A stretch of DNA of 11,663 nucleotides from Bacillota bacterium (GTDB taxonomy: Bacteria; Eremiobacterota; SpSt-956; JAKJGF01). Shown in pieces: positions 2,188 to 11,663 of the stretch (positions are counted from its first letter, which is position 1; every line of letters begins with the position of its first letter). Made by a program: the position numbers and the translations under genes. The stretch lies in NCBI GenBank assembly GCA_029555925.1, contig JAKPQU010000305.1, positions 1-11,663 of the forward strand, given 5' to 3'. The notes beneath the pieces were generated by a model that had not been told where the DNA came from, made no database searches, and was given only the letters and a program-made list of their open reading frames with translations.

Positions 2188-3279
2188 TCAATTCATAGTT
2201 CCGCATTGATCACAGCAGATTCTTCCCTGAGGAAGGGGTGTATTGCATTCTCTGCAACATTTAGCACCGGCCTGTTCCAGCTGTTTCTGTCTCTGTCTTT
2301 CTTTTTCATAGGCATCTTCTCTTATAATTCTTGCACGGGATTCAATGAGAGCAAAGATAATTATAATAAAATAAATAAAAGCCATTAAAAAAATAAGAGG
2401 GCCATGAAACATGGGAAGAGGATAGGTAAGTTTACCAAAAACTACAGCCTGAGTTATTTCCTGTCCTATAGCTGCGGCATTAAAGATTCCATGTAGCAAC
2501 ATAGCACCGAATAAACCTATTAACCCTCCAAACTGTGCAAATTTAGCCAGTCTGCCTCTTCCTTTCAAAAACCCCATAAGAATACCGGTAGTGGCAGTAA
2601 AACACCCGTGACCTATCATACATATAATTGATCTGTAAAGTACAAATCCTAAAAATTCCAGCGCCGTAGTCTGACCTTCTTTAAAAGCGGCAGAAAAATA
2701 AAACAGATTCTCAACTGCCGCAAATCCTATGCCGGCAGAAAAACCAAATAAAATACCATCATATGTATCATCCATTTCATGATGACCTGCCATAATAATA
2801 ACTCCCAGACCTTTCAGACACTCCTCTACAACAGGGGCTATAAAAACACTTGTACCCACAACAGCTGCCAGTTGTCCCCCTGTTTCTCCTCCTATGAGAG
2901 AACCAATCACTACCAGTATGAGTCCAAGACATGTATTTACTATAAAAGCTCCTCCTGCCGATGCAACCCCCCAGAGAAAGAGGGAAATTATAAATCTTAA
3001 AGGTTCTCTTTCAAAAATATCCAGTAACCACATAAATAAAAGATAAATAACAGGGAATACTATTGTTGCTACAGTAGCCACAAGAATTATTACAAAATCC
3101 ATATGAGGTGCAAGGACTGATGCCTGGTAGGCAGAACCGACAGCAAAAATAATCCATACAGTAAGTTCACAGAGCCATACTATAGGATTGAGCATCAGCA
3201 TAGCAGGTATCTCTCTCCAAGGTCTGCCTCTCAACCTGGGAAGAAACAAATTTTTCAACGTATATCTTTCTTTTTCCAT
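2188..3279 (-). CDS. PrsW-family intramembrane protease with C-terminal zinc ribbon
   Basis: This is a 363-residue polytopic membrane protein. The family signature is present: EE at 152-153 in APVVEECLKG, the G-x-x-x-A-x-x-EN segment (E190, N191), and conserved His in HGCFTA (H224) and LHGIFN (H263). PrsW proteases (related to the CPBP/Abi superfamily) cut membrane anti-sigma factors such as RsiW in Bacillus; the substrate here is unknown. Hydrophobic segments fall at about 28-50, 60-87, 96-128, 138-162, 174-197, 208-236, 249-272 and 290-312. After a basic, charged stretch (313-340) the tail has two CxxC knuckles, C342/C345 and C356/C359, a small cytoplasmic zinc ribbon that may bind a partner. 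The start is firm: the ATG at 3277-3279 is preceded by AGAAGGA at proper spacing. It diverges from the BlaI operon and probably shares a transcript with the kinase gene downstream. Family assignment is confident; function is inferred. Confidence 0.9.
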   Translation of the reverse strand: MEKERYTLKNLFLPRLRGRPWREIPAMLMLNPIVWLCELTVWIIFAVGSAYQASVLAPHMDFVIILVATVATIVFPVIYLLFMWLLDIFEREPLRFIISLFLWGVASAGGAFIVNTCLGLILVVIGSLIGGETGGQLAAVVGTSVFIAPVVEECLKGLGVIIMAGHHEMDDTYDGILFGFSAGIGFAAVENLFYFSAAFKEGQTTALEFLGFVLYRSIICMIGHGCFTATTGILMGFLKGRGRLAKFAQFGGLIGLFGAMLLHGIFNAAAIGQEITQAVVFGKLTYPLPMFHGPLIFLMAFIYFIIIIFALIESRARIIREDAYEKERQRQKQLEQAGAKCCRECNTPLPQGRICCDQCGTMN

Positions 3280-3336: not shown

Positions 3337-3346
3337 TTTAAGTCGT

Positions 3347-3417
3347 CGTGACGCGTAACGCGTGACGCGTGACAGGTTTAATCCACGCACATCACGCATT
3401 ACGCTTTACGCATTACG
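3347..3417. repeat. Paired, oppositely oriented heptamer arrays
   Basis: The left array (3347-3373) has units CGTGACG, CGTAACG, CGTGACG and CGTGAC. After a 16-bp gap, the right array (3390-3417) has CATCACG, CATTACG, CTTTACG and CATTACG. The right array read in reverse complement aligns with the left at about 21 of 27 positions, so the whole could fold as a long imperfect hairpin. It lies between the divergent PrsW-like and BlaI genes and may insulate them or act in transcript folding; function is unproven. Confidence 0.85.
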
Positions 3418-3531
3418 AGGTCATTATTTATGGATAGTTATGAAACTAACTATAATATAATAGGTGCATATATTATAACATTTCTTTACGCCATTGTATA
3501 ATAATAATGATCATTTTTTACAAATTCAAAC

Positions 3532-3566
3532 CTACTATTGACAGTAGTAGATGCACATGTTAAAAT
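3532..3566 (+). promoter_or_regulatory. BlaI-operon promoter with overlapping operator dyad
   Basis: TTGACA (3538-3543) is a consensus -35 box. After exactly 17 bases comes TAAAAT (3561-3566), a five-of-six -10 box. The -35 sits inside a 19-bp dyad, CTACTATTGACAGTAGTAG (3532-3550), where eight of nine opposed pairs are complementary. Operators of BlaI/MecI-type repressors are dyads of this size with TACA/TGTA or TACTA/TAGTA half-sites, so this is the likely site for autorepression by the first gene. Transcription would begin near 3573. That excludes the upstream ATG at 3551, which lies in the promoter spacer. Confidence 0.75.
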
Positions 3567-3598
3567 TCATTCAAATAATATTCAAACGAGGTCTTATC

Positions 3599-4048
3599 AT
3601 GAAAAATCAGGATATTAAATTTGAGAATCTCCATCTATCGGAAAGTGGCGTAAGAAAAGCTCTCGGTTTTCTGGAGGCAGATATAATGGAGATTATCTGG
3701 GAAAATGGTGAACTATCCGTAAGAGAGGTTTTTGACATAATAAAAGACAAACGAGATATAGCCTATACAACTGTAATGACCACTATGGACAGGCTTTATA
3801 AAAAAGGAATCCTATCCAGAAAAAAAATAGTGAAAGGCTACAGTTACTGGCCTAAAGTTACTGAGAAAAAACTGGAAAAACATATAATAAGGGAAACATT
3901 TAAAGGACTCTTTTCTGATATGAAAGAACCTGTTATGTCTTATTTTGCAAATCCGGAAGAACCTGAAGACATAGAGATAATAAAACGTTTTGCCACTATA
4001 ATAGATGAATTACAAAAAGAACAGGATAAAAACGATGGAAACAATTAA
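3599..4048 (+). CDS. BlaI/MecI/CopY-family transcriptional repressor
   Basis: This 149-residue winged-helix repressor has the family's usual length. The core reads LGFLEADIMEIIW, then LSVREV, then RDIAYTTVMTTMDRLYKKG (helices and recognition helix, about 22-70), then a wing ending YSYWP (about 71-85). The rest is the dimerisation region. It contains no cysteine, so it lacks the CopY-type CxC metal site. By remembered alignment to staphylococcal BlaI, SYFANPEE (114-121) falls where LNFAKNEE carries the Asn-Phe cleavage site, so F116 would follow the cut; this is inference. The start at 3599 was chosen because CGAGG precedes it at good spacing and the in-frame ATG at 3551 overlaps the promoter. 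It is first in a plus-strand operon and overlaps the M56 protease gene by 14 bp, the standard BlaI-BlaR1 pairing. It probably represses its own five-gene operon. Confidence 0.93.
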   Translation: MKNQDIKFENLHLSESGVRKALGFLEADIMEIIWENGELSVREVFDIIKDKRDIAYTTVMTTMDRLYKKGILSRKKIVKGYSYWPKVTEKKLEKHIIRETFKGLFSDMKEPVMSYFANPEEPEDIEIIKRFATIIDELQKEQDKNDGNN

Positions 4049-5081
4049 TATTATAAGCTCTGTATATTTATTTTTTCTATTTCTTTCTTTATTTGTAACA
4101 GTAATTTTCTGCTTTTTTGAAAAAATTAAAGAACTGTTTATTAAAAATCTGTCAAAAAATTTTTTTATCATTACATTCTTGCCGGTATTAATCTCTTTTT
4201 ATATAACAATTTATACTTACTGGGAACAGAGTAAATGTCCTGAAAACAATATTTTTGACGGCCATACAAGATGTGCCGGAATAAACGGTATAATCCATAT
4301 AGCCCTTGATGCAATACCTTACGAAGCCAAAGATACGGTAATTATACTTAAAGTCATGGCTATGATATTAATGATTATATCATGTGTAAAGATATGTTCA
4401 CTTATCCTTTCAACAGTAAGATTTTATAAAAATTTCTCAAAAAACTTCCTTTCCCCGTCGGAAAGGGTTCTAAGTTTGAGTGAAAAGTTAAATAAAAATC
4501 TGAAAAGATCAATAAGATTTCAGGAAGCACATATACCGGTAAAATATACAGGTATTACAGGTTTCTTTAATCCTGCAGTCATAGTGCCGAAAAAATTAAC
4601 AGAAATATTAAATGACAGAGAACTGGAAGGTCTGATGTATCATGAAGCATGTCATATAATAAACATGGATAATCCTGTAAGACTTATCATATTATTATGT
4701 AACAGTATTTTATTTTTTCTTCCTCTGAAATTTTATAAAGAATGGGATAAAATCAGGGATTTAGAATGTGATAAATTTTCCGTTTTTCATACGAAAAATC
4801 CTCTTGCTGTTGCATCGGCCCTTGTCAAGACAGCAGAACTTTCGGAAACTCCTCATGAAAATTACTCATTTTCCTGTTTCGGAAAAAGTTCTATCAGATT
4901 AAGACTTGAAAAATTAATTGAATACAGCAAAAAAAAGAACTCTTTTTTTACAGGCCATGTTTCCCGTCTGTTATTACTCAAAAATATAAGTTTTTATATA
5001 TTATTTTTTTGTTTTCTCATAATAGTGAAACATGTTTTGAATATTGAACACTGTTTTATGGAATTGCTTATTAATATTTAG
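4035..5081 (+). CDS. M56 (BlaR1-type) membrane metalloprotease, probable sensor for BlaI
   Basis: This 348-residue zinc protease belongs to the M56 family. HEACH (203-207) is the HExxH metal and catalytic motif, and E244 in RDLECD is the likely third ligand. Membrane segments lie at about 7-27, 44-62, 100-127 and 317-333, with a further hydrophobic stretch at 214-231. Basic loops at 30-42 and 128-137 place the protease domain in the cytoplasm, as in BlaR1. Unlike BlaR1 it has no C-terminal penicillin-binding sensor; only about 15 residues follow the last helix. The extracytoplasmic loop 63-99 carries C68, H77, C80 and H88, and the tail carries H333, H339 and C340, so metal or redox sensing is possible. 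The ATG at 4035 is preferred over the one at 4005 because AGGA lies about 8 bases upstream. It overlaps the BlaI gene and precedes the efflux genes, suggesting signal-induced cleavage of BlaI. Confidence 0.88.
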   Translation: METINIISSVYLFFLFLSLFVTVIFCFFEKIKELFIKNLSKNFFIITFLPVLISFYITIYTYWEQSKCPENNIFDGHTRCAGINGIIHIALDAIPYEAKDTVIILKVMAMILMIISCVKICSLILSTVRFYKNFSKNFLSPSERVLSLSEKLNKNLKRSIRFQEAHIPVKYTGITGFFNPAVIVPKKLTEILNDRELEGLMYHEACHIINMDNPVRLIILLCNSILFFLPLKFYKEWDKIRDLECDKFSVFHTKNPLAVASALVKTAELSETPHENYSFSCFGKSSIRLRLEKLIEYSKKKNSFFTGHVSRLLLLKNISFYILFFCFLIIVKHVLNIEHCFMELLINI

Positions 5082-5117
5082 TGAAGGGTGAAAAAACGAA
5101 GGGTATATGGTGAAAAG

Positions 5118-6425
5118 ATGAGTAATGAAACCACGCGTAACGCGTTACGCGTTATGCGTTACGATTATACAAACATCTTTCAATTTTTTTTTGTTCTCTT
5201 ATTGAGTATACTTCTTCTTACTTCTCTATGCTGTGCATCCGAGACAGCTAAAATATTGACTATTGAAGATATTATAGCTATTACCATAGAAAAAAATCCC
5301 GATATAAATGCTGCAAAAGAAAAACTGGCATATTTTGAGGCTGCTGCCAGAGGAAGCAGCACATGGCCGAATCCGGAACTTGTTATAGGCCCCAATACAG
5401 GCTCTATAGAAAGAAAAGAGAATATACTCCTCTCTCAGTTATTTGACATATCGGGCAAATTTCATCTAAAAGGAGAAAAAGCCGACAGAGAAGCTTTTTA
5501 TGAGGCATGTCAGTTACAGGAGGTAATCCTTGAAACGTCCCTTCATGCCAGACTCGGATACTATGACTATTGCACGGCTTTTGAACTTTATAAACTTCAG
5601 GAAAAAAACACAGAGATTTTCAAAAAAGCACTGGAAAAATCGGAAATAGAATATAATCTCGGCAATATTCCGCAGGCGGAATTCCTCCGTTTTCAGCTTG
5701 AAGAGGCACGATCGGTACAGGCTCTTATTCATGCAGAGAATCAACTGAAGATTGCCAGATCAACCATTTTCAGCATTATGGGACAGTATGACAGAAAAAA
5801 TACAGAAATAGCAGTTCCTGATATAAACAGTAATCCAATAAAAATAAAAGAAATAAAAGAGGAAGAAATTCTAGATCAGGCTCTTGTGAACAGGCCTGTT
5901 ATAAAAGGTCAGGAAGCGTTAATATCTGTGAAAGAATATGAAATCAGTATAGCAAAAAGAGAGAGATTTCCCGATCTTATAGTATCTTACAGAAGAGATT
6001 CGAACAGAGAATATGAACCGGAGGAAAATGGAGTGGTATTCAGATTTGCCCTTCCTGTTTTTGACTATGGTTCCATAGGCTCACAGATAGATATGGCAGA
6101 AGCAGGCCTGAGACAGGAAGAAGCCATGTTATCATCTGTAAAAATAAAGGTGAAACTGGAAGCGGAAAAAGCCTGTTACGAATTTCTTGAAGCCAGAAGT
6201 TTACTGACAGCTTTCAGAGATAAAATACTGGTAAATTCAGATGATCTTCTATGGAAGGCTCAGTACGGATATGAAGAAGGTGCATTTTCATATCTGGAAT
6301 TTATGGATGCCATGAAAACCTATAATGAAATACAGAAAGAATATATAGAAGCTGTCTACAGATATTACGGAGCCATCGCAAAATGCGAAAGAGCAGCTTC
6401 AATGAAACTGGAGGAAGAGTTATGA
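5118..6425 (+). CDS. Outer-membrane efflux factor (TolC/CzcC-like)
   Basis: This is the outer-membrane channel of a tripartite pump, 435 residues from this start. A hydrophobic signal peptide (about 20-38) ends in LCCAS; signal-peptidase I cleavage after the Ala at 40 is plausible, while the lipobox fit is poor. Two related outer-membrane-efflux halves follow, each beginning with long helices: one from LTIEDIIAITIEKNPDINAAKEK, the other from RPVIKGQEALISVKEYEIS. The tail ends in a charged helix (KLEEEL). The 5' end is odd. A GTG at 5088, an ATG at 5118 and an ATG at 5154 are all in frame, and the last lies inside a 7-bp repeat array (5136-5163). I chose 5118 because GGTG lies a few bases upstream; 5088 has its GAAGG directly abutting. 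It follows the M56 gene after a short gap and overlaps the adaptor gene by ATGA. Confidence 0.88.
   Translation: MSNETTRNALRVMRYDYTNIFQFFFVLLLSILLLTSLCCASETAKILTIEDIIAITIEKNPDINAAKEKLAYFEAAARGSSTWPNPELVIGPNTGSIERKENILLSQLFDISGKFHLKGEKADREAFYEACQLQEVILETSLHARLGYYDYCTAFELYKLQEKNTEIFKKALEKSEIEYNLGNIPQAEFLRFQLEEARSVQALIHAENQLKIARSTIFSIMGQYDRKNTEIAVPDINSNPIKIKEIKEEEILDQALVNRPVIKGQEALISVKEYEISIAKRERFPDLIVSYRRDSNREYEPEENGVVFRFALPVFDYGSIGSQIDMAEAGLRQEEAMLSSVKIKVKLEAEKACYEFLEARSLLTAFRDKILVNSDDLLWKAQYGYEEGAFSYLEFMDAMKTYNEIQKEYIEAVYRYYGAIAKCERAASMKLEEEL
5136..5163. repeat. Heptamer array inside the 5' end of the outer-membrane factor frame
   Basis: The four units are CGTAACG, CGTTACG, CGTTATG and CGTTACG. 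The third unit supplies an in-frame ATG (5154-5156), just before the signal peptide. Translated from 5118, the array encodes residues that do not resemble a signal peptide, so it is probably an addition to the gene's front. The unit length of 7 is not a multiple of 3, so gain or loss of a unit would shift frame for any start upstream of it. Confidence 0.85.
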
Positions 6426-8206
6426 GATTAATCAGGCTGTTTCTGATTTTATCATTGTTATTACTGTTTATTCCTGCCTGTAAAGAGGCACAGCATAATG
6501 AAGATCTTCACACTGAAGCTTCTCACACTGAAGATTCTCATACCGACGAAGGTCATGTTCATGGGCAGGCAAGTAAATTTGTCACACTTGAAAAAGAAAT
6601 TAAAGAATCTATAGGGTTAAAGACAAAAAAGATAGAATCTTCCAGAGTCCCTTCTTATATGGAAACAATAGGAGAAGTAATAGCAAATTCAAATCTTCTT
6701 GTAAATATAACTCCTGTTACAGGAGGTAAGGTAAAACTTATCAGGGTAAATTTAGGAGATTATGTGCATAAAGGTGATCTTCTTTCTATCATATCCAGTT
6801 CCGATCTGGCCAGAGCAATTGCAGATTTGCAGGGAGGAGCTCAGAAGGTAAAAGTAGCCTCTGAAAATTTGAGAATAAAAAAAGAACTGGCAAAAACAGG
6901 AGCCTTTTCAGAGCCTCCCTATGAAACAAAAAAAGAAGAGCTGGCAGACAGGAAAACAAAGTTTATTACTGCAAGAGAAAATGTAAAAGCGGAAGAGGCA
7001 AATTTCAAATCTGCTTCGGCAGAACTTAAAAAGATAATAGCCATAGAAGAAACAGGTGAATTCGGGAAAAAACCTCTTGATGAGGCGAAGATGAATTTTG
7101 CAGAGGCCGAAAGTGAATATGTAAGGGCAAAAAGTGACCTGGTAAAATCAGAAGAAGAGCTTAAGAGAGGTGAAAAATTATATAAAGCAGGAATAATATC
7201 AAAAAAAGAACTTCTCTCCATTCAGACAGAATATGAAAATGCCTCTGCATCTGTTACTCAGACAAAAACCGCAATGGATATAGCAAAAGGCATAATGGAA
7301 AGAGAAGAGTCTGTTTATGACAGAGGTGTAAGAGACCATGCAGAATTACAGGCAGTAAAGGCGAAATATACAGAAGCAGAAAAAGAATATACACAGGCAC
7401 TTTCAGAATTTCAAAGAGCAAAAACAGATCTTGATATAATAGAACATCAGATGAAAAGAGAAGAAACCATATACAATAACGGCCTGAACAGTGCACAGGA
7501 GTTGCAGCAGGCAGAAGCCTCTTACAGAGAAGCACAGATTGAATATGACAGAGCAGAAGCAGTACTGGCAACCTTCGGTATAACACCGGAAAATGCCGGT
7601 AAATACACAGGAGGAGAACTTCCTGTATTCTCTCCCATAAACGGATATATACTGGAAAGAAATATAAATACAGGTGAATTTATATATACAAATACCATTA
7701 TTTTTAAAGTACTCGATAGTTCAAGCCTCTGGATAGACAGTGAAATCTATGAAAAGGATTTCACAAAAGTAAAAACAGGACAGACTGTTGAGATAACAAC
7801 TTCTGCCTATCCGGGAGAGATATTTACAGGAAAAATTTTCTATATAAGCAATACGTTCCATCAGGAAACAAGAACCTTCGACATAAGATTTTCCTTCGAC
7901 AACAGAGAAAACCTGCTCAAACCTGGTATGACAGTCAACTCAAGGATAAAAACCAGTGAAACACCGGGCCTGATACTGCCTTCATCGTCAGTCCTGGATG
8001 ATGAGGGGAAAAAAATTATTTTCCTTGCAGTGAAAGATAAAGAAAATACCTATGAAAGACGGGAAGTTGAAGCAGAACTTCTGAGAAACAAGGAATATAT
8101 TATAAAAAAAGGTCTCTCCCCGGGAGAAGAGGTTGTCATAGAAGGTGCTTTTGAATTACGATCTGCAGCAAGCAAAGAAGCCCTCAAAGGAGGGTGCCAG
8201 CATTAA
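6422..8206 (+). CDS. RND periplasmic adaptor lipoprotein (CzcB/CusB-like) with His-rich N-terminus
   Basis: This 594-residue membrane-fusion protein bridges the inner-membrane pump and outer-membrane channel. It is longer than typical adaptors (about 370-520). A signal peptide ends in FIPAC, making Cys20 the likely lipidated residue. Next comes a His-rich stretch with H25, H30, H35, H40, H45 and H47, as in metal-efflux adaptors. Lipoyl halves lie at about 80-128 and 400-430, flanking an alpha-helical region (about 140-386). The beta-barrel is about 431-510 and the membrane-proximal domain about 511-580. The helical region has five tip-like segments centred on G160, G212, G257, G302 and G354. 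The third fits the TolC-docking R-x3-L-x6-S motif exactly (R249, L253, S260). The start at 6422 is firm: GGAGG at 6410-6414, and ATGA overlap with the preceding stop. It is followed after 104 bp of repeats by the pump gene. Confidence 0.93.
   Translation: MRLIRLFLILSLLLLFIPACKEAQHNEDLHTEASHTEDSHTDEGHVHGQASKFVTLEKEIKESIGLKTKKIESSRVPSYMETIGEVIANSNLLVNITPVTGGKVKLIRVNLGDYVHKGDLLSIISSSDLARAIADLQGGAQKVKVASENLRIKKELAKTGAFSEPPYETKKEELADRKTKFITARENVKAEEANFKSASAELKKIIAIEETGEFGKKPLDEAKMNFAEAESEYVRAKSDLVKSEEELKRGEKLYKAGIISKKELLSIQTEYENASASVTQTKTAMDIAKGIMEREESVYDRGVRDHAELQAVKAKYTEAEKEYTQALSEFQRAKTDLDIIEHQMKREETIYNNGLNSAQELQQAEASYREAQIEYDRAEAVLATFGITPENAGKYTGGELPVFSPINGYILERNINTGEFIYTNTIIFKVLDSSSLWIDSEIYEKDFTKVKTGQTVEITTSAYPGEIFTGKIFYISNTFHQETRTFDIRFSFDNRENLLKPGMTVNSRIKTSETPGLILPSSSVLDDEGKKIIFLAVKDKENTYERREVEAELLRNKEYIIKKGLSPGEEVVIEGAFELRSAASKEALKGGCQH
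6494..6562 (+). repeat. His-rich pentapeptide repeat coding region
   Basis: Residues 25-47 of the mature adaptor have His at every fifth position. The units are HNEDL, HTEAS, HTEDS and HTDEG, followed by HVH. At DNA level the units share CACTGAAG-like 15-bp periodicity, which suggests recent tandem duplication. Such His- and acid-rich stretches next to the lipid anchor are expected to bind divalent metal ions or Cu, Zn or Ni; the metal cannot be named. Confidence 0.85.
6854..7579 (+). repeat. Five-fold tandem helical-hairpin repeat in the adaptor
   Basis: Residues about 145-386 are built from five diverged segments of the form (charged helix)-Y-x-x-G-x-x-S-x-x-E-L-(helix). The central glycines are G160, G212, G257, G302 and G354, spaced 52, 45, 45 and 52, the difference being one heptad. 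Units 3 and 5 keep R-x3-[L/I]-x6-S (R249/L253/S260; R346/I350/S357). Unit 1 keeps L and S only; units 2 and 4 are degenerate. A normal adaptor has one such tip. Confidence 0.75.
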
Positions 8207-8207
8207 A

Positions 8208-8238
8208 CAGTGAGCAGTAATCAGTGACCAGTGACCAG
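8208..8238. repeat. Heptamer array CAGTRAN x4
   Basis: The units are CAGTGAG, CAGTAAT, CAGTGAC and CAGTGAC plus a partial CAG. The array begins one base after the adaptor stop codon. The sequence differs from the CGTRACG family but the 7-bp period is the same. It lies in the 104-bp adaptor-to-pump gap. Confidence 0.88.
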
Positions 8239-8265
8239 CCAAGTATGTAATAAAGGTTTTCCTCC

Positions 8266-8286
8266 CGTCACGCGTTATGCGTCACG
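8266..8286. repeat. Heptamer array CGTYAYG x3
   Basis: The units CGTCACG, CGTTATG and CGTCACG lie directly before the pump gene's ribosome-binding site (8295-8302). They are the reverse-oriented form of the family at 2117-2146. The ATG inside the second unit is not in frame with the pump gene. Confidence 0.85.
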
Positions 8287-8310
8287 AGAGCAGTAAGGAA
8301 GGTGTAATTA

Positions 8311-11300
8311 TTGAATAACAGTGACCTGGAACGGCCGGATTCTTTTATCACAAAAGTAATTCATTTTTCTCTTCAGAAAAGGGTTCTTGTAATTTTTATA
8401 GTTATCATGGCAATACTGACAGGCATTATGTCCTATACAAAACTTTCGAACGACATATTTCCAGATCTTACACTTCCTATTTTCAATATACTTATAGAAA
8501 ACAAATCTATGGCACAGGAAGAAGTGGAACTTCTCATTACAAGACCTGTAGAAACTGCAATGAACGGACTTCCCGGCGTAACAGGTATACGCTCTACGAC
8601 AATACCGGGACTTTCGGCAGTAACAGTAAGCTTTTCCTCCGATACGGATTATTATCTGGCAAGACAGTTCGTAACAGAGAAATTTTCACAGGTCATGCCT
8701 TCTTTTCCTGGAGGTACGGAAAATCCCGTCATAGGCAGTATAACAACAAGACTGTCGGAGATTTTTCAATATACCCTTCAGGGCCCTCATGAAACTCCTG
8801 AACAATTGACGGAACTTCGTGAGCTTGCGGAATTTCAACTGGAATATCAGATTATGACATCACCGAATATTTCAAAAGTGATAAATATGGGCGGATATTT
8901 CCGGCAGTACCAGGTTCTTGTAGATCCTTACAGGCTTCAGTCATTGAATCTCACCCTTTCGGATATTGAAAGGGCTGTAATAGCATCGAACGAAGGAGCT
9001 TCCGGCAGTTTTATATCTATGGGGCCCACTGAAATGATCATAAACGGCCAGAATAACAGAATACAATCAATACAGGATCTGGCACTGTCAGTGGTGGGAG
9101 TAAGAAAAAAATCAATACCAATCCTTCTTCGCGATGTTGGTTCCGTTGAAGACAGCCAGGCTATAAGAAGAGGGATTGTGAGAAGGAATGGAGAAGAAAC
9201 TGTTTCAAGTACTGTTGTGAAACAGTTCGGTTCCGATACAGTTACTACAATTTCAGAGTTAAAAAAACATATTCAGGAAATAAATGCCACCCTGCCTTCC
9301 GGTTACAGAATAATCCCGTACTATGACCAGACAGAACTCATAGAAAGTGCCCTTCATAATGTGCAGAAAGCAATACTTGAAGGATCTTTTTTTGTAATAC
9401 TCGTTCTTATCGTATTCCTGGGAGAAATAAGAAGTTCCTTTATTGTGGCTCTTGTTATACCCGTATCCGTTATAATAACATTTCTTTTAATGTATCTTGC
9501 AAAACTCTCTATTAATACCATGTCTCTGGGAGGTCTTGCCATCGGCATAACCCTTCTGGTAGATGCATCGATAATAGATGTGGAAAATGCAGTGCGCCGT
9601 CTTTCAGAGGAGAAAAACAGGCATGTACCGCTGTTACATGTTATTTACAACAGTGTTAAAGAAATGAGGAAACCTACTACTGCAGCTACATTTATAATAA
9701 TTTCCGTATTTTTCCCTCTTTTTATTCTTGGAGGTCTCGAGGGAAAAATGTTTAAACCTCTTGCCTTTGCAGTATGTTCTTCTATGGCTGCAGCCTTTTT
9801 ACTTTCTCTCACACTCACTCCGGTACTCTGCTCCTATCTTTTAAAAAAGAGAGGAGAAGAAAAAGAATCCGGAATCACAGTAAAACTAAAAACATTTTAT
9901 ACCTCTATTCTCCGAAAAGTCCTGGCAGGAGAGAAAATTTTTATCGGAGTTGTATTAATAACGGTCATAGCCATTCTTTCATCATCTGTTTTTCTTTCCA
10001 CGGAATTCATACCTGAAGTGGATGAAGGTGCCATATTTTTATCAATTAACATGCCTTCCGATATATCCCTTCAGAAAGCAATAAAACTGTCAGGTCTTGT
10101 AGAGAAGATACTCCATGATATTCCTGAAGTAACGGATGTTATAAGTACTGTGGGAAGAGCGGAAGAATCCGAGTGCCCCATAGGGATAAATACGACTGAA
10201 ATACATGCCAACCTCTTACCTCCTGCAAAAAGACAGAGAAGCAGAGAAAAAATAGTGGATGAACTGAGGCACAGGGTCAATGAAATACCAGGCATAGCAG
10301 TTGCCATCATGCAGCCTTTTACAATGAGAATAGAAGAAAGTATTGCAGGAACTCCTTCTACGGTAAGTGTGAAAGTCTTTGGTGATGATCTGTCTCTACT
10401 TATAAAAAAAGGGAAAGAAATAAGAGAAGTAATGGAAGGAATCCCGGGGATTACGGATCTTAATATGGAACAGGCTACGGAAATACCACAGTTAAAAATA
10501 GATATAAATCGTGAAGAAGCTGCAAGATATGGTATAACTGCCGCTTCTCTTTCGGAATATATAAGACTTGCCCTTGGAGGAGAAGAAGTTTCTCAGATAT
10601 GGAGCGGAAAGAAAAATTACGGAATTTATATAAGACTCATAGATGAATACCGTTCCGATCCTGAAAAACTCCAGGATCTTCTCATAGATACGCCTGTTGG
10701 CGCAAGGGTTCCTCTGGGACAGATAGCCAGCATATATGAAACACATGTGCCAAATACGATAAAACATGAAGCTCTTACAAGAAGAATTGCTATTAACTGT
10801 AATGTAGAGGGAGGTAATGTGGGAGGTGTCGTTAAAGCCATAAAAGAAAAAATAAAGAAAGAAATAACCCTTCCCGAAGGATATTATGTAGTATATGGAG
10901 GGGAATATGAAAATCAGGAAAAAGCATTCCGTTCTCTTTCTCTTGCAGTAATTTTCGCCATATTTTTAGTATTCATGCTTATATATATTACCCTTGGCTC
11001 AATATCCGTAACTCTTCTTATTATGATAACCCTTCCTGCAGCGCTTGCCGGCGGTATTATAGCCATGTTTATTACAGGAACTTCGTTAAATGTGCCTTCA
11101 TCCATAGGTTTTATTGCTCTCATGGGTATAGCTGTTCAGAACAGTCTTGTACTTTTTACCAATATAAAAGAGATGAAAGAACATGGGATTACCGGCAGAG
11201 AGGCAATCATAAAAGCGAGTGTCGACAGGGTGAGGCCGAAACTAATGACTGCTCTCTGCGCCATTCTGGGACTTATTCCTCTTGTTGTGACAAAACTTCA

Positions 11301-11454
11301 GGGAACAGAAATGCAAAAACCTATGGCTATTGTTATCATAGGAGGACTTTTCACATCCACTGTTTTTGTTCTCTTTATATTACCTGTTTTTTATGATATG
11401 TTTTTGAAATTTAAAGAAAAGGTTTCCGTAAAAGAGCTTAAATTACCATTCTAA
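8311..11454 (+). CDS. RND efflux pump of the heavy-metal (CzcA/CusA) type
   Basis: This 1047-residue inner-membrane proton antiporter has the family's full length. TM1 is about 24-42. The first porter region has the heavy-metal-RND pattern FPDLTLP...EEVELLITRPVETAMNGLPGV (50-90). TMs 2-6 are about 355-512, with the proton-relay acidic residues D418 and E425 in LLVDASIIDVEN. The second porter region includes GRAEES (615-620) and VKVFGDD (687-693). The C-terminal TMs are about 876-1032, with VRPKLMTAL (973-982) and GTEMQKPMAIVIIGG (998-1012). These favour heavy-metal over drug pumps; Cu, Ag, Zn, Co, Ni or Cd cannot be separated. At the CusA E939 position GIAVQNS has Gln-Asn, as in CzcA-like GVAVLN. 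The start is TTG at 8311, with AAGGAAGG (8295-8302) 8 bases upstream and an in-frame stop at 8305-8307, so no earlier start exists. Confidence 0.95.
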   Translation: MNNSDLERPDSFITKVIHFSLQKRVLVIFIVIMAILTGIMSYTKLSNDIFPDLTLPIFNILIENKSMAQEEVELLITRPVETAMNGLPGVTGIRSTTIPGLSAVTVSFSSDTDYYLARQFVTEKFSQVMPSFPGGTENPVIGSITTRLSEIFQYTLQGPHETPEQLTELRELAEFQLEYQIMTSPNISKVINMGGYFRQYQVLVDPYRLQSLNLTLSDIERAVIASNEGASGSFISMGPTEMIINGQNNRIQSIQDLALSVVGVRKKSIPILLRDVGSVEDSQAIRRGIVRRNGEETVSSTVVKQFGSDTVTTISELKKHIQEINATLPSGYRIIPYYDQTELIESALHNVQKAILEGSFFVILVLIVFLGEIRSSFIVALVIPVSVIITFLLMYLAKLSINTMSLGGLAIGITLLVDASIIDVENAVRRLSEEKNRHVPLLHVIYNSVKEMRKPTTAATFIIISVFFPLFILGGLEGKMFKPLAFAVCSSMAAAFLLSLTLTPVLCSYLLKKRGEEKESGITVKLKTFYTSILRKVLAGEKIFIGVVLITVIAILSSSVFLSTEFIPEVDEGAIFLSINMPSDISLQKAIKLSGLVEKILHDIPEVTDVISTVGRAEESECPIGINTTEIHANLLPPAKRQRSREKIVDELRHRVNEIPGIAVAIMQPFTMRIEESIAGTPSTVSVKVFGDDLSLLIKKGKEIREVMEGIPGITDLNMEQATEIPQLKIDINREEAARYGITAASLSEYIRLALGGEEVSQIWSGKKNYGIYIRLIDEYRSDPEKLQDLLIDTPVGARVPLGQIASIYETHVPNTIKHEALTRRIAINCNVEGGNVGGVVKAIKEKIKKEITLPEGYYVVYGGEYENQEKAFRSLSLAVIFAIFLVFMLIYITLGSISVTLLIMITLPAALAGGIIAMFITGTSLNVPSSIGFIALMGIAVQNSLVLFTNIKEMKEHGITGREAIIKASVDRVRPKLMTALCAILGLIPLVVTKLQGTEMQKPMAIVIIGGLFTSTVFVLFILPVFYDMFLKFKEKVSVKELKLPF

Positions 11455-11552: not shown

Positions 11553-11584
11553 GTCTGCCTGCCTGGTGTTCCGGAGAAAAAAAT
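11553..11584. repeat. Inverted-repeat arm of a MITE-like element (right)
   Basis: This arm pairs with 41-72 at 27 of 32 positions and is preceded by AGTA (11549-11552), matching the AGTA after the left arm. Between it and the terminal 33-bp repeat lie 46 bases of non-coding sequence (11585-11630). Confidence 0.65.
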
Positions 11585-11630: not shown

Positions 11631-11663
11631 CATGATATAAGCTGTAACTGTTATAAACGTTCC
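11631..11663. repeat. 33-bp terminal direct repeat, right copy
   Basis: This is an exact copy of bases 1-33 at the other end of the window. It lies 46 bp inside the right inverted-repeat arm (11553-11584). Joining the two ends through this overlap would give a circle of 11,630 bp and would place both inverted-repeat arms in one 150-bp element. Confidence 0.95.

Follow-up and report, generated by a model that had tools for sequence, protein, structure and literature searches.

A putative BlaI/M56 proteolytic switch at the head of a predicted metal-efflux RND operon, and its recurrence across bacterial phyla

Control of metal-exporting RND pumps is usually ascribed to two-component systems, MerR- or ArsR-type regulators or extracytoplasmic function (ECF) sigma factors. 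Contig JAKPQU010000305.1 raises the question of whether such a pump may also be governed by a repressor and a membrane protease of the BlaI/BlaR1 kind, and what such a pair might sense. The window (the whole analysed stretch, 11,663 nt) carries within positions 3532–11454 a plus-strand module in which genes for a BlaI-family repressor and a short M56-family membrane metalloprotease precede a tripartite RND efflux system. We somewhat favour the reading that this heavy-metal efflux (HME)-type RND operon is derepressed by a proteolytic switch of the BlaR1/BlaI type whose sensor consists minimally of a loop and a tail. Since the same pairing, with control sites of its own, recurs in unrelated bacteria, a switch known from antibiotic resistance appears to have found a second use in surface sensing, perhaps of a metal.

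Gene content and relation to known systems

The original prediction had named five ordered plus-strand genes, encoding a BlaI-type repressor, an M56 protease, an outer-membrane factor (OMF), a periplasmic adaptor and an RND pump, two pairs of which overlap. The open reading frame (ORF) list and the Pfam and NCBIfam scores bear this out (Table 1), with overlaps of 14 nt between the BlaI and M56 genes and 4 nt between the OMF and adaptor genes. The repressor scored above the Pfam gathering score of 22.6 bits for its family, and its closest solved sequence is Staphylococcus aureus BlaI; the M56 protein scored above its gathering score of 31 bits and carries the HExxH motif as H203, E204 and H207. 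The pump passed the TIGR00914 CusA/CzcA subfamily cut-off of 701.45 bits, and the nearest solved pumps by sequence were ZneA (556 bits) and CusA (483 bits), with AcrB at ~250 bits. By these scores it is an HME-class RND protein, for which metal export is predicted. The adaptor has a lipoprotein-like signal and, as read from the sequence, six His within residues 25–47. The HME-type pump, adaptor and OMF are shared with CusCFBA, CzcCBA and ZneCAB, which differ in being placed under two-component or other regulators. Two-component control is described for Cupriavidus.

The most likely start of the BlaI gene is ATG 3599, since the alternative, ATG 3551, lies 5' of the -10 box. Candidate OMF starts are GTG 5088, ATG 5118 and ATG 5154, and the N-terminus reads through an ACGCG-type repeat; taking ATG 5118, the gap between the M56 and OMF genes is 36 nt. 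The RND gene starts at TTG 8311, 104 nt after the end of the adaptor gene. Scanning the window for Rfam families and tRNA genes gave no hits.

Table 1 Features of the predicted switch and efflux module in the window.
Feature	Position	Strand	Remarks
Promoter/operator region	3460–3598	+	Common to the relative L001; identical in 110 of 139 aligned columns
Putative BlaI operator CTACTATTGACAGTAGTAG, core TACTA-N7-TAGTA	3532–3550	+	Palindrome overlapping the -35 box
Sigma-70-like promoter TTGACA-17-TAAAAT	3538–3566	+	Score 11/12
BlaI/MecI/CopY-family repressor	3599–4048	+	149 aa, 0 Cys; PF03965 82.9 bits
Short M56 membrane metalloprotease	4035–5081	+	348 aa; PF05569 47.0 bits; HExxH at 4641–4655
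Outer loop (EL1) of M56 with C68, H77, C80	4236–4274	+	Kept in relatives covering the region, down to 47% identity
C-terminal tail of M56, H339-C340	5049–5054	+	Invariant in 7 rows; Cys column invariant in 30/30
Outer-membrane factor (TolC/OEP)	5118–6425, start uncertain	+	PF02321 119.5 bits
RND periplasmic adaptor	6422–8206	+	HlyD_D23 (PF16576) 141.5 bits; TIGR01730 206.9 bits, above cut-off
HME-type (CusA/CzcA) RND pump	8311–11454	+	ACR_tran 859.2 bits; TIGR00914 840.9 bits

The first two genes resemble BlaR1/BlaI and MecR1/MecI of S. aureus and Bacillus licheniformis in repressor family, in an adjacent M56 protein with HExxH, in the predicted BlaR1 fold, in an aromatic residue that follows the BlaI cut site in the alignment and in a palindrome over the promoter. 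A fold search of the predicted M56 model ranked BlaR1 first. The module differs from these systems in its linkage to a tripartite RND pump rather than to blaZ or mecA, in Cys and His residues in EL1 and a short tail where BlaR1 and MecR1 have a penicillin sensor, and in a third zinc ligand that is mostly Asp in the window's family. Pfam matched no penicillin-sensor domain in the M56 protein, whose last long predicted helix (304–334) is followed by 14 residues, and its score against the BlaR1 equivalog NF000326 was 30 bits, below the cut-off of 400. Family membership, along with the 'envelope signal' raised in the original prediction, might suggest that M56, like BlaR1, detects beta-lactams or damage to the cell wall and that the cell responds with RND efflux. 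We hold this to be highly improbable in view of the missing sensor domain, the HME-type pump and, in agreement with the earlier remark that no beta-lactamase or penicillin-binding gene is near, the absence of any such domain from the seven proteins scanned with Pfam.

Nor does the repressor look like the sensor. The top NCBIfam match of the window BlaI by score is CopY_TcrY (TIGR02698), which would fit a CopY-like metal sensor to which M56 is accessory, but at 49.7 bits it falls below the cut-off of 121.95. CopY and TcrY copper repressors share the DNA-binding family and carry a CxC...CxC metal hook; the window BlaI contains no Cys, and CxC-x(3-5)-CxC is absent from it, from nine further BlaI proteins and from 32 BlaI hits at loci of the phylum. 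A CopY-like sensor is therefore scarcely credible here.

Recurrence of the gene arrangement

One relative of the window M56 emerged from a pattern scan of the species collection. It belongs to a metagenome-assembled genome (MAG) labelled Bacillota (genome G001, locus L001), where the same five genes and the promoter are kept. With blastn the window matched L001 over 3460–5080 at 92.4% and 5182–11418 at 90.6% and nowhere else, so that the homology from 3460 to 11418 has one break of ~100 bases and stops at both ends. Promoter and five genes form one unit on this comparison, since the stretch of homology reaches from the promoter to the RND gene. The BlaI of G001 is the sole PF03965 match found in that genome, and the M56 the sole PF05569 match above cut-off. 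Although the MAG is labelled Bacillota, the closest named relative of its BlaI is from Candidatus Eremiobacteraeota, and outer-membrane efflux genes are present. The closest named relatives (P0009, P0128, P0145, P0160, P0180) are Candidatus Eremiobacteraeota, and more distant ones bear other names. We infer that the phylum is Eremiobacterota, and 148–149 genomes formed the comparison set for it.

Among 72,556 plasmid records the window M56 had one match, Glaciecola pGLAAG01, with the gene order CopY-M56-OMF-adaptor-CzcA as in the window. The Glaciecola M56 matches 16 plasmid records, nine of them (itself included) over at least 80% of its length. Gene order was checked in these nine; the other seven are partial matches in Bacillota and Halorussus. 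The plasmid hosts are Glaciecola, Pseudoalteromonas and Shewanella, together with one Salmonella IncC plasmid. A BlaI-M56-TolC-adaptor-CusA/CzcA cassette is complete in eight of the nine; in the other one the record stops after the adaptor. It agrees with the window in its five genes, their order and orientation, and a Cys/His-bearing M56 loop and tail. It differs in a HupE/UreJ gene next after the cassette (7/9), in another palindrome, repeated in tolC (7/9), and in its distant proteins: in the four plasmids compared, identity to the window was ~26% for BlaI, ~22–27% over part of M56 and ~33% for RND, with OMF and adaptor barely alignable. Since identity is this low, the alignments indicate that the five-gene arrangement is old or of repeated origin.

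The window BlaI matches 66 plasmid records, of which five hand-picked actinobacterial plasmids with incomplete gene tables were examined. All five have genes for a cadmium transporter, copper CopC or a P-type ATPase near BlaI and three have an annotated M56 after it; an RND pump appears in none of the five incomplete tables.

Within the phylum, a second family of short M56 proteins (A2, as opposed to the window's family, A1) occupies at least 29 places in at least 27 of 149 genomes at E <1e-25, with the next match at 1.3e-16; these are lower bounds, with up to 15 candidates scored per genome. BlaI lies upstream of M56 in 28 of the 29 loci fetched, and the remaining contig starts inside M56. 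An adaptor is seen in 28 and an RND pump in 26, the contig ending wherever one is missing. As in the window, the BlaI-M56 pair stands at the head of an RND operon, Cys is present in both EL1 and tail, and the palindrome arms are related and equally spaced. Unlike the window, A2 operons run BlaI-M56-adaptor-RND, then OMF where the contig reaches, and have a palindrome directly before the start codon and a non-HME pump. Eight A2 pumps scored 334–398 bits with the NCBIfam metal-pump model and 544–588 bits with RND_permease_2, both below cut-off. An RND tree of 66 rows, built by a quick method with SH-aLRT support only and long-branch warnings, placed the 22 grouped A2-linked pumps and that of L122 in one clade and the pumps of the window, L001 and genome G010 on the HME side. 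We dropped the broader notion that all short M56 proteins of the phylum head RND operons. Of the 20 loci first fetched, 11 fit it; in G018, G055, G053, G057 and G075 the short M56 heads none, and others lie at a contig end or have none in reach.

HME pumps occur at no fewer than 38 places above the TIGR00914 cut-off in at least 17 of the 149 genomes, again lower bounds, with up to four candidates scored per genome. Two of the 38 are tied to BlaI-M56, one through a contig overlap, and short contigs may hide more; BlaI/M56 was found in none of 40 fetched stretches (37 with HME pumps besides L001, and three weaker). The overlap is in G010, where contigs C36 and C28 share an exact 127-base end inside the OMF gene. 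Provided that they are neighbours, BlaI-M56 (C28) is divergent to OMF-adaptor-HME RND (C36). In G133 (L123, 7039–10225), genes for M56, BlaI, a multicopper oxidase and a DUF4396 protein are divergent to RND-OMF-adaptor; the pump scored 507 bits, below the HME cut-off, and the M56 ends in His-His-Cys. A second RND gene, G133-type in the tree, lies near A2 BlaI-M56-RND operons in L055 (11492–14644) and L114 (1343–4465).

A synteny search had been proposed with the original prediction, which loss of the arrangement in relatives was to refute. That refutation did not come about: BlaI-M56-efflux linkage turns out to be kept in L001, in the gammaproteobacterial plasmids and, with another pump class and order, at the A2 places of the phylum. 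Predicted BlaI/M56 control of RND efflux is in this sense recurrent across phyla and not peculiar to the window.

The same comparisons bear on whether the efflux genes have a promoter of their own and are run by a neighbouring histidine kinase, with BlaI/M56 regulating only itself. A PAS histidine kinase gene at 252–2099 and the two gaps inside the operon leave room for this. However, neither the kinase nor a PrsW-type membrane protease gene (2188–3279, minus strand) stands beside the operon in L001, the window ORFs include no response regulator, and efflux genes follow BlaI-M56 on the plasmids (OMF-adaptor-RND) and in the A2 family (adaptor-RND-OMF) alike. We consider kinase control very unlikely.

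Promoter and candidate operators

The earlier prediction placed the genes behind one consensus promoter. The site before blaI has the top promoter score in the window, tied with one minus-strand site, but promoter-like sites occur at chance level overall (38 found against 36.5 ± 6.9 in shuffles), so that it is a candidate for the sole promoter of the operon. The palindrome at 3532–3550 pairs at eight of nine positions and covers the -35 box in both the window and L001. Its core, TACTA-N7-TAGTA, has one copy in the window, where 0.02 are expected by chance, and was present in 3 of 200 shuffles.

After column shuffles (given below) we rejected promoter conservation in L001 as sole proof of an operator, but the core recurs at other loci. 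In 1.25 Mb (overlapping loci included) the core has only three independent places, all at BlaI-M56/efflux loci: it lies in the blaI promoter or blaI-OMF interval in G001 and G010 and between the two divergent operons in G133. In G010 it has one copy in 14 kb and arose in 0 of 200 shuffles; with a wider 12-position consensus that site stands out less (p 0.023 relative to first-order random sequence). The element at 3532–3550 thus has the form of an operator whose core recurs at two further BlaI-M56/efflux loci, and it is a putative binding site for BlaI.

Other lineages have palindromes of their own. A2 promoters show TTGAC (in a few TTTAC), then a 19-base palindrome ending directly before the start codon. 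CTRCTA-N7-TAGYAG is matched at 10 or more of its 12 places in 24 of 27 scored A2 promoters (L115 and L122 left out), 23 of them at one position, counts that are descriptive only, the consensus having been derived from the same sequences. The palindrome of L107 is nine bases off with the start chosen, and L120, L054 and L065 fall below 10/12. The plasmids carry a different palindrome, AAAACCGAT-N5-ATCGGTTTT, and all 16 matches to its core ACCGAT-N5-ATCGGT in 1.45 Mb lie within the nine plasmids, nine before blaI and seven at +35 of tolC. The second copy, in the 5' end of tolC (L131, L132, L134–L138), resembles an auxiliary operator.

Loop and tail of the M56 protein

In the alignment of short M56 proteins, one EL1 Cys, one tail Cys and HExxH are invariant (30/30). 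Among database proteins covering these columns, Cys occupies the EL1 position in 69 of 70 and the tail position in 66 of 66; by a crude distance rule, both are present in only 3 of 35 other M56 proteins. In the plasmid M56 proteins (9/9), EL1 contains HWHH and the tail HH, with no invariant Cys there. Equivalents of Asp246 and Arg294 are invariant in the M56 alignment. A predicted A2-type model, for which BlaR1 again ranked first in a fold search, reached a predicted local distance difference test (pLDDT) score of 87.8, better than that of the window M56.

We no longer regard the Cys pair as a mark of RND-linked M56 proteins alone: the three actinobacterial M56 proteins inspected beside other metal genes show, by eye, Cys near loop and tail. 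The M56 protein P0198, with a His/Cys-rich loop and His in its tail, may be a metal-binding variant; it matched none of the plasmid records.

These residues also suit a variant of the same BlaI/M56 switch in which the loop and tail Cys form a disulfide that senses oxidative stress, redox stress of the envelope or a toxic organic compound, and the class of pump depends merely on lineage. The single EL1 Cys and single tail Cys kept by the A2 family suffice for a disulfide, and the eight A2 pumps, with RND_permease_2 as their best model, are non-HME. Against a disulfide, the plasmid M56 proteins that accompany HME pumps have His clusters in place of invariant Cys, the P0198 loop and the window loop (two Cys and a His) better fit a ligand set, and the five actinobacterial BlaI genes lie near cadmium, copper or P-type ATPase genes. 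We regard the disulfide as unlikely, though well worth keeping in view.

Proposed switch and points that weigh against it

Under the favoured proteolytic switch with its loop-tail sensor, BlaI dimers would bind the palindrome over the -35 box and jointly repress blaI, m56 and the three efflux genes, which would be read as a single transcript. M56 would be a membrane receptor with its zinc protease site on the cytoplasmic side, and its input would be EL1 (C68, H77, C80) with the short outer C-terminal tail (H339, C340) instead of a penicillin-binding domain. BlaR1 signalling, according to PMC9834060, passes through EL1 and the C-terminal sensor. By analogy with EL1 displacement in BlaR1, we hypothesize that a metal ion, or a thiol-reactive or oxidising agent, alters the loop-tail contact; the protease might then cut BlaI in its dimerisation domain at S114/Y115, the equivalent of N101/F102, and the derepressed operon would supply a pump that lowers the signal. 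Comparison shows the linkage of the genes, the recurring palindromes and the conserved loop, tail and protease residues; DNA binding, cleavage, loop-tail contact, signal, transported ion and single transcript are predictions.

Several observations weigh against this scheme. Where BlaR1 has Glu242 of the ExxxD motif as its third zinc ligand, six of seven rows of the window family have Asp, so that protease activity of M56 is putative. The window M56 model has pLDDT <50 in both EL1 and tail, which makes the distance between them unreadable, and a loop-tail distance taken from it was rejected for low model confidence. The loop columns are hard to align at 16–19% identity, and A2 M56 proteins have two further near-invariant Cys in the first helix and one near position 153. 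In 27 genomes Cys-pair M56 proteins stand before a pump that is not of the HME class (as scanned for eight of the pumps), an argument that something other than a metal could be the signal. Thirty-six of the 38 HME places have no BlaI/M56 in the fetched DNA, many of them on short contigs, and the G133 M56 falls below its Pfam cut-off (27.8 against 31 bits). As for transcription, the 104-nt gap before the RND gene holds a repeat and promoters inside the operon are possible; the 22-base perfect promoter block shared with L001 was equalled in length by 518 of 5000 column shuffles.

A more general proposal is tentative, and we give it rather less than even credence: short M56 proteins may be widespread transmembrane metal or thiol receptors in which an EL1 and tail site, of Cys, His or both by lineage, replaces the BlaR1 sensor, and which cut BlaI-type repressors and so switch RND or other metal-export genes in several phyla. 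BlaR1 would then be an antibiotic-sensing offshoot. We found no description of BlaI/M56 with RND or metal export in the openly licensed PubMed Central (PMC) papers, and only in this sense can the design be called undescribed, as suggested earlier; the plasmid copies are annotated in public records, and the design is recurrent. In PMC10470040, a BlaI and an M56 gene of Porphyromonas gingivalis adjoin by locus tag and the CusA/CzcA tag is distant, on another contig. If the proposed switch is real, repressor-protease control of metal RND pumps would add a way of sensing at the outer surface that dispenses with a phosphorelay and travels on conjugative plasmids. With its Cys/His set, the loop-tail site would be a small, concrete sensor that makes both the signal of M56 proteins lacking a penicillin sensor and signalling across the membrane testable.

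Flanking genes, repeats and contig ends

The histidine kinase and the PrsW-type protease, which has a Cys-rich C-terminal end, were rejected as parts of the module, whose flanks are not common to the window and L001. Viral contigs scanned with the window, P0198 and Glaciecola M56 proteins yielded no relative. The listed window ORFs include no replication gene, and the terminal element of the window was not found in G001, in a search that had no positive control and is uninformative.

Dispersed ACGCGTAACGCGTGACGCGT-type repeats lie in window gaps at 2101–2149, 3345–3416, 5131–5164 and 8264–8292, one of them read through at the OMF start, and the adaptor-RND gap of L001 holds a related repeat. 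The window ends, 1–33 and 11631–11663, are an identical 33-base direct repeat, and around the junction 41–72 and 11553–11584 form an inverted repeat (84%). Either a circle of 11,630 bases or a contig ending in a dispersed palindromic element could account for this.

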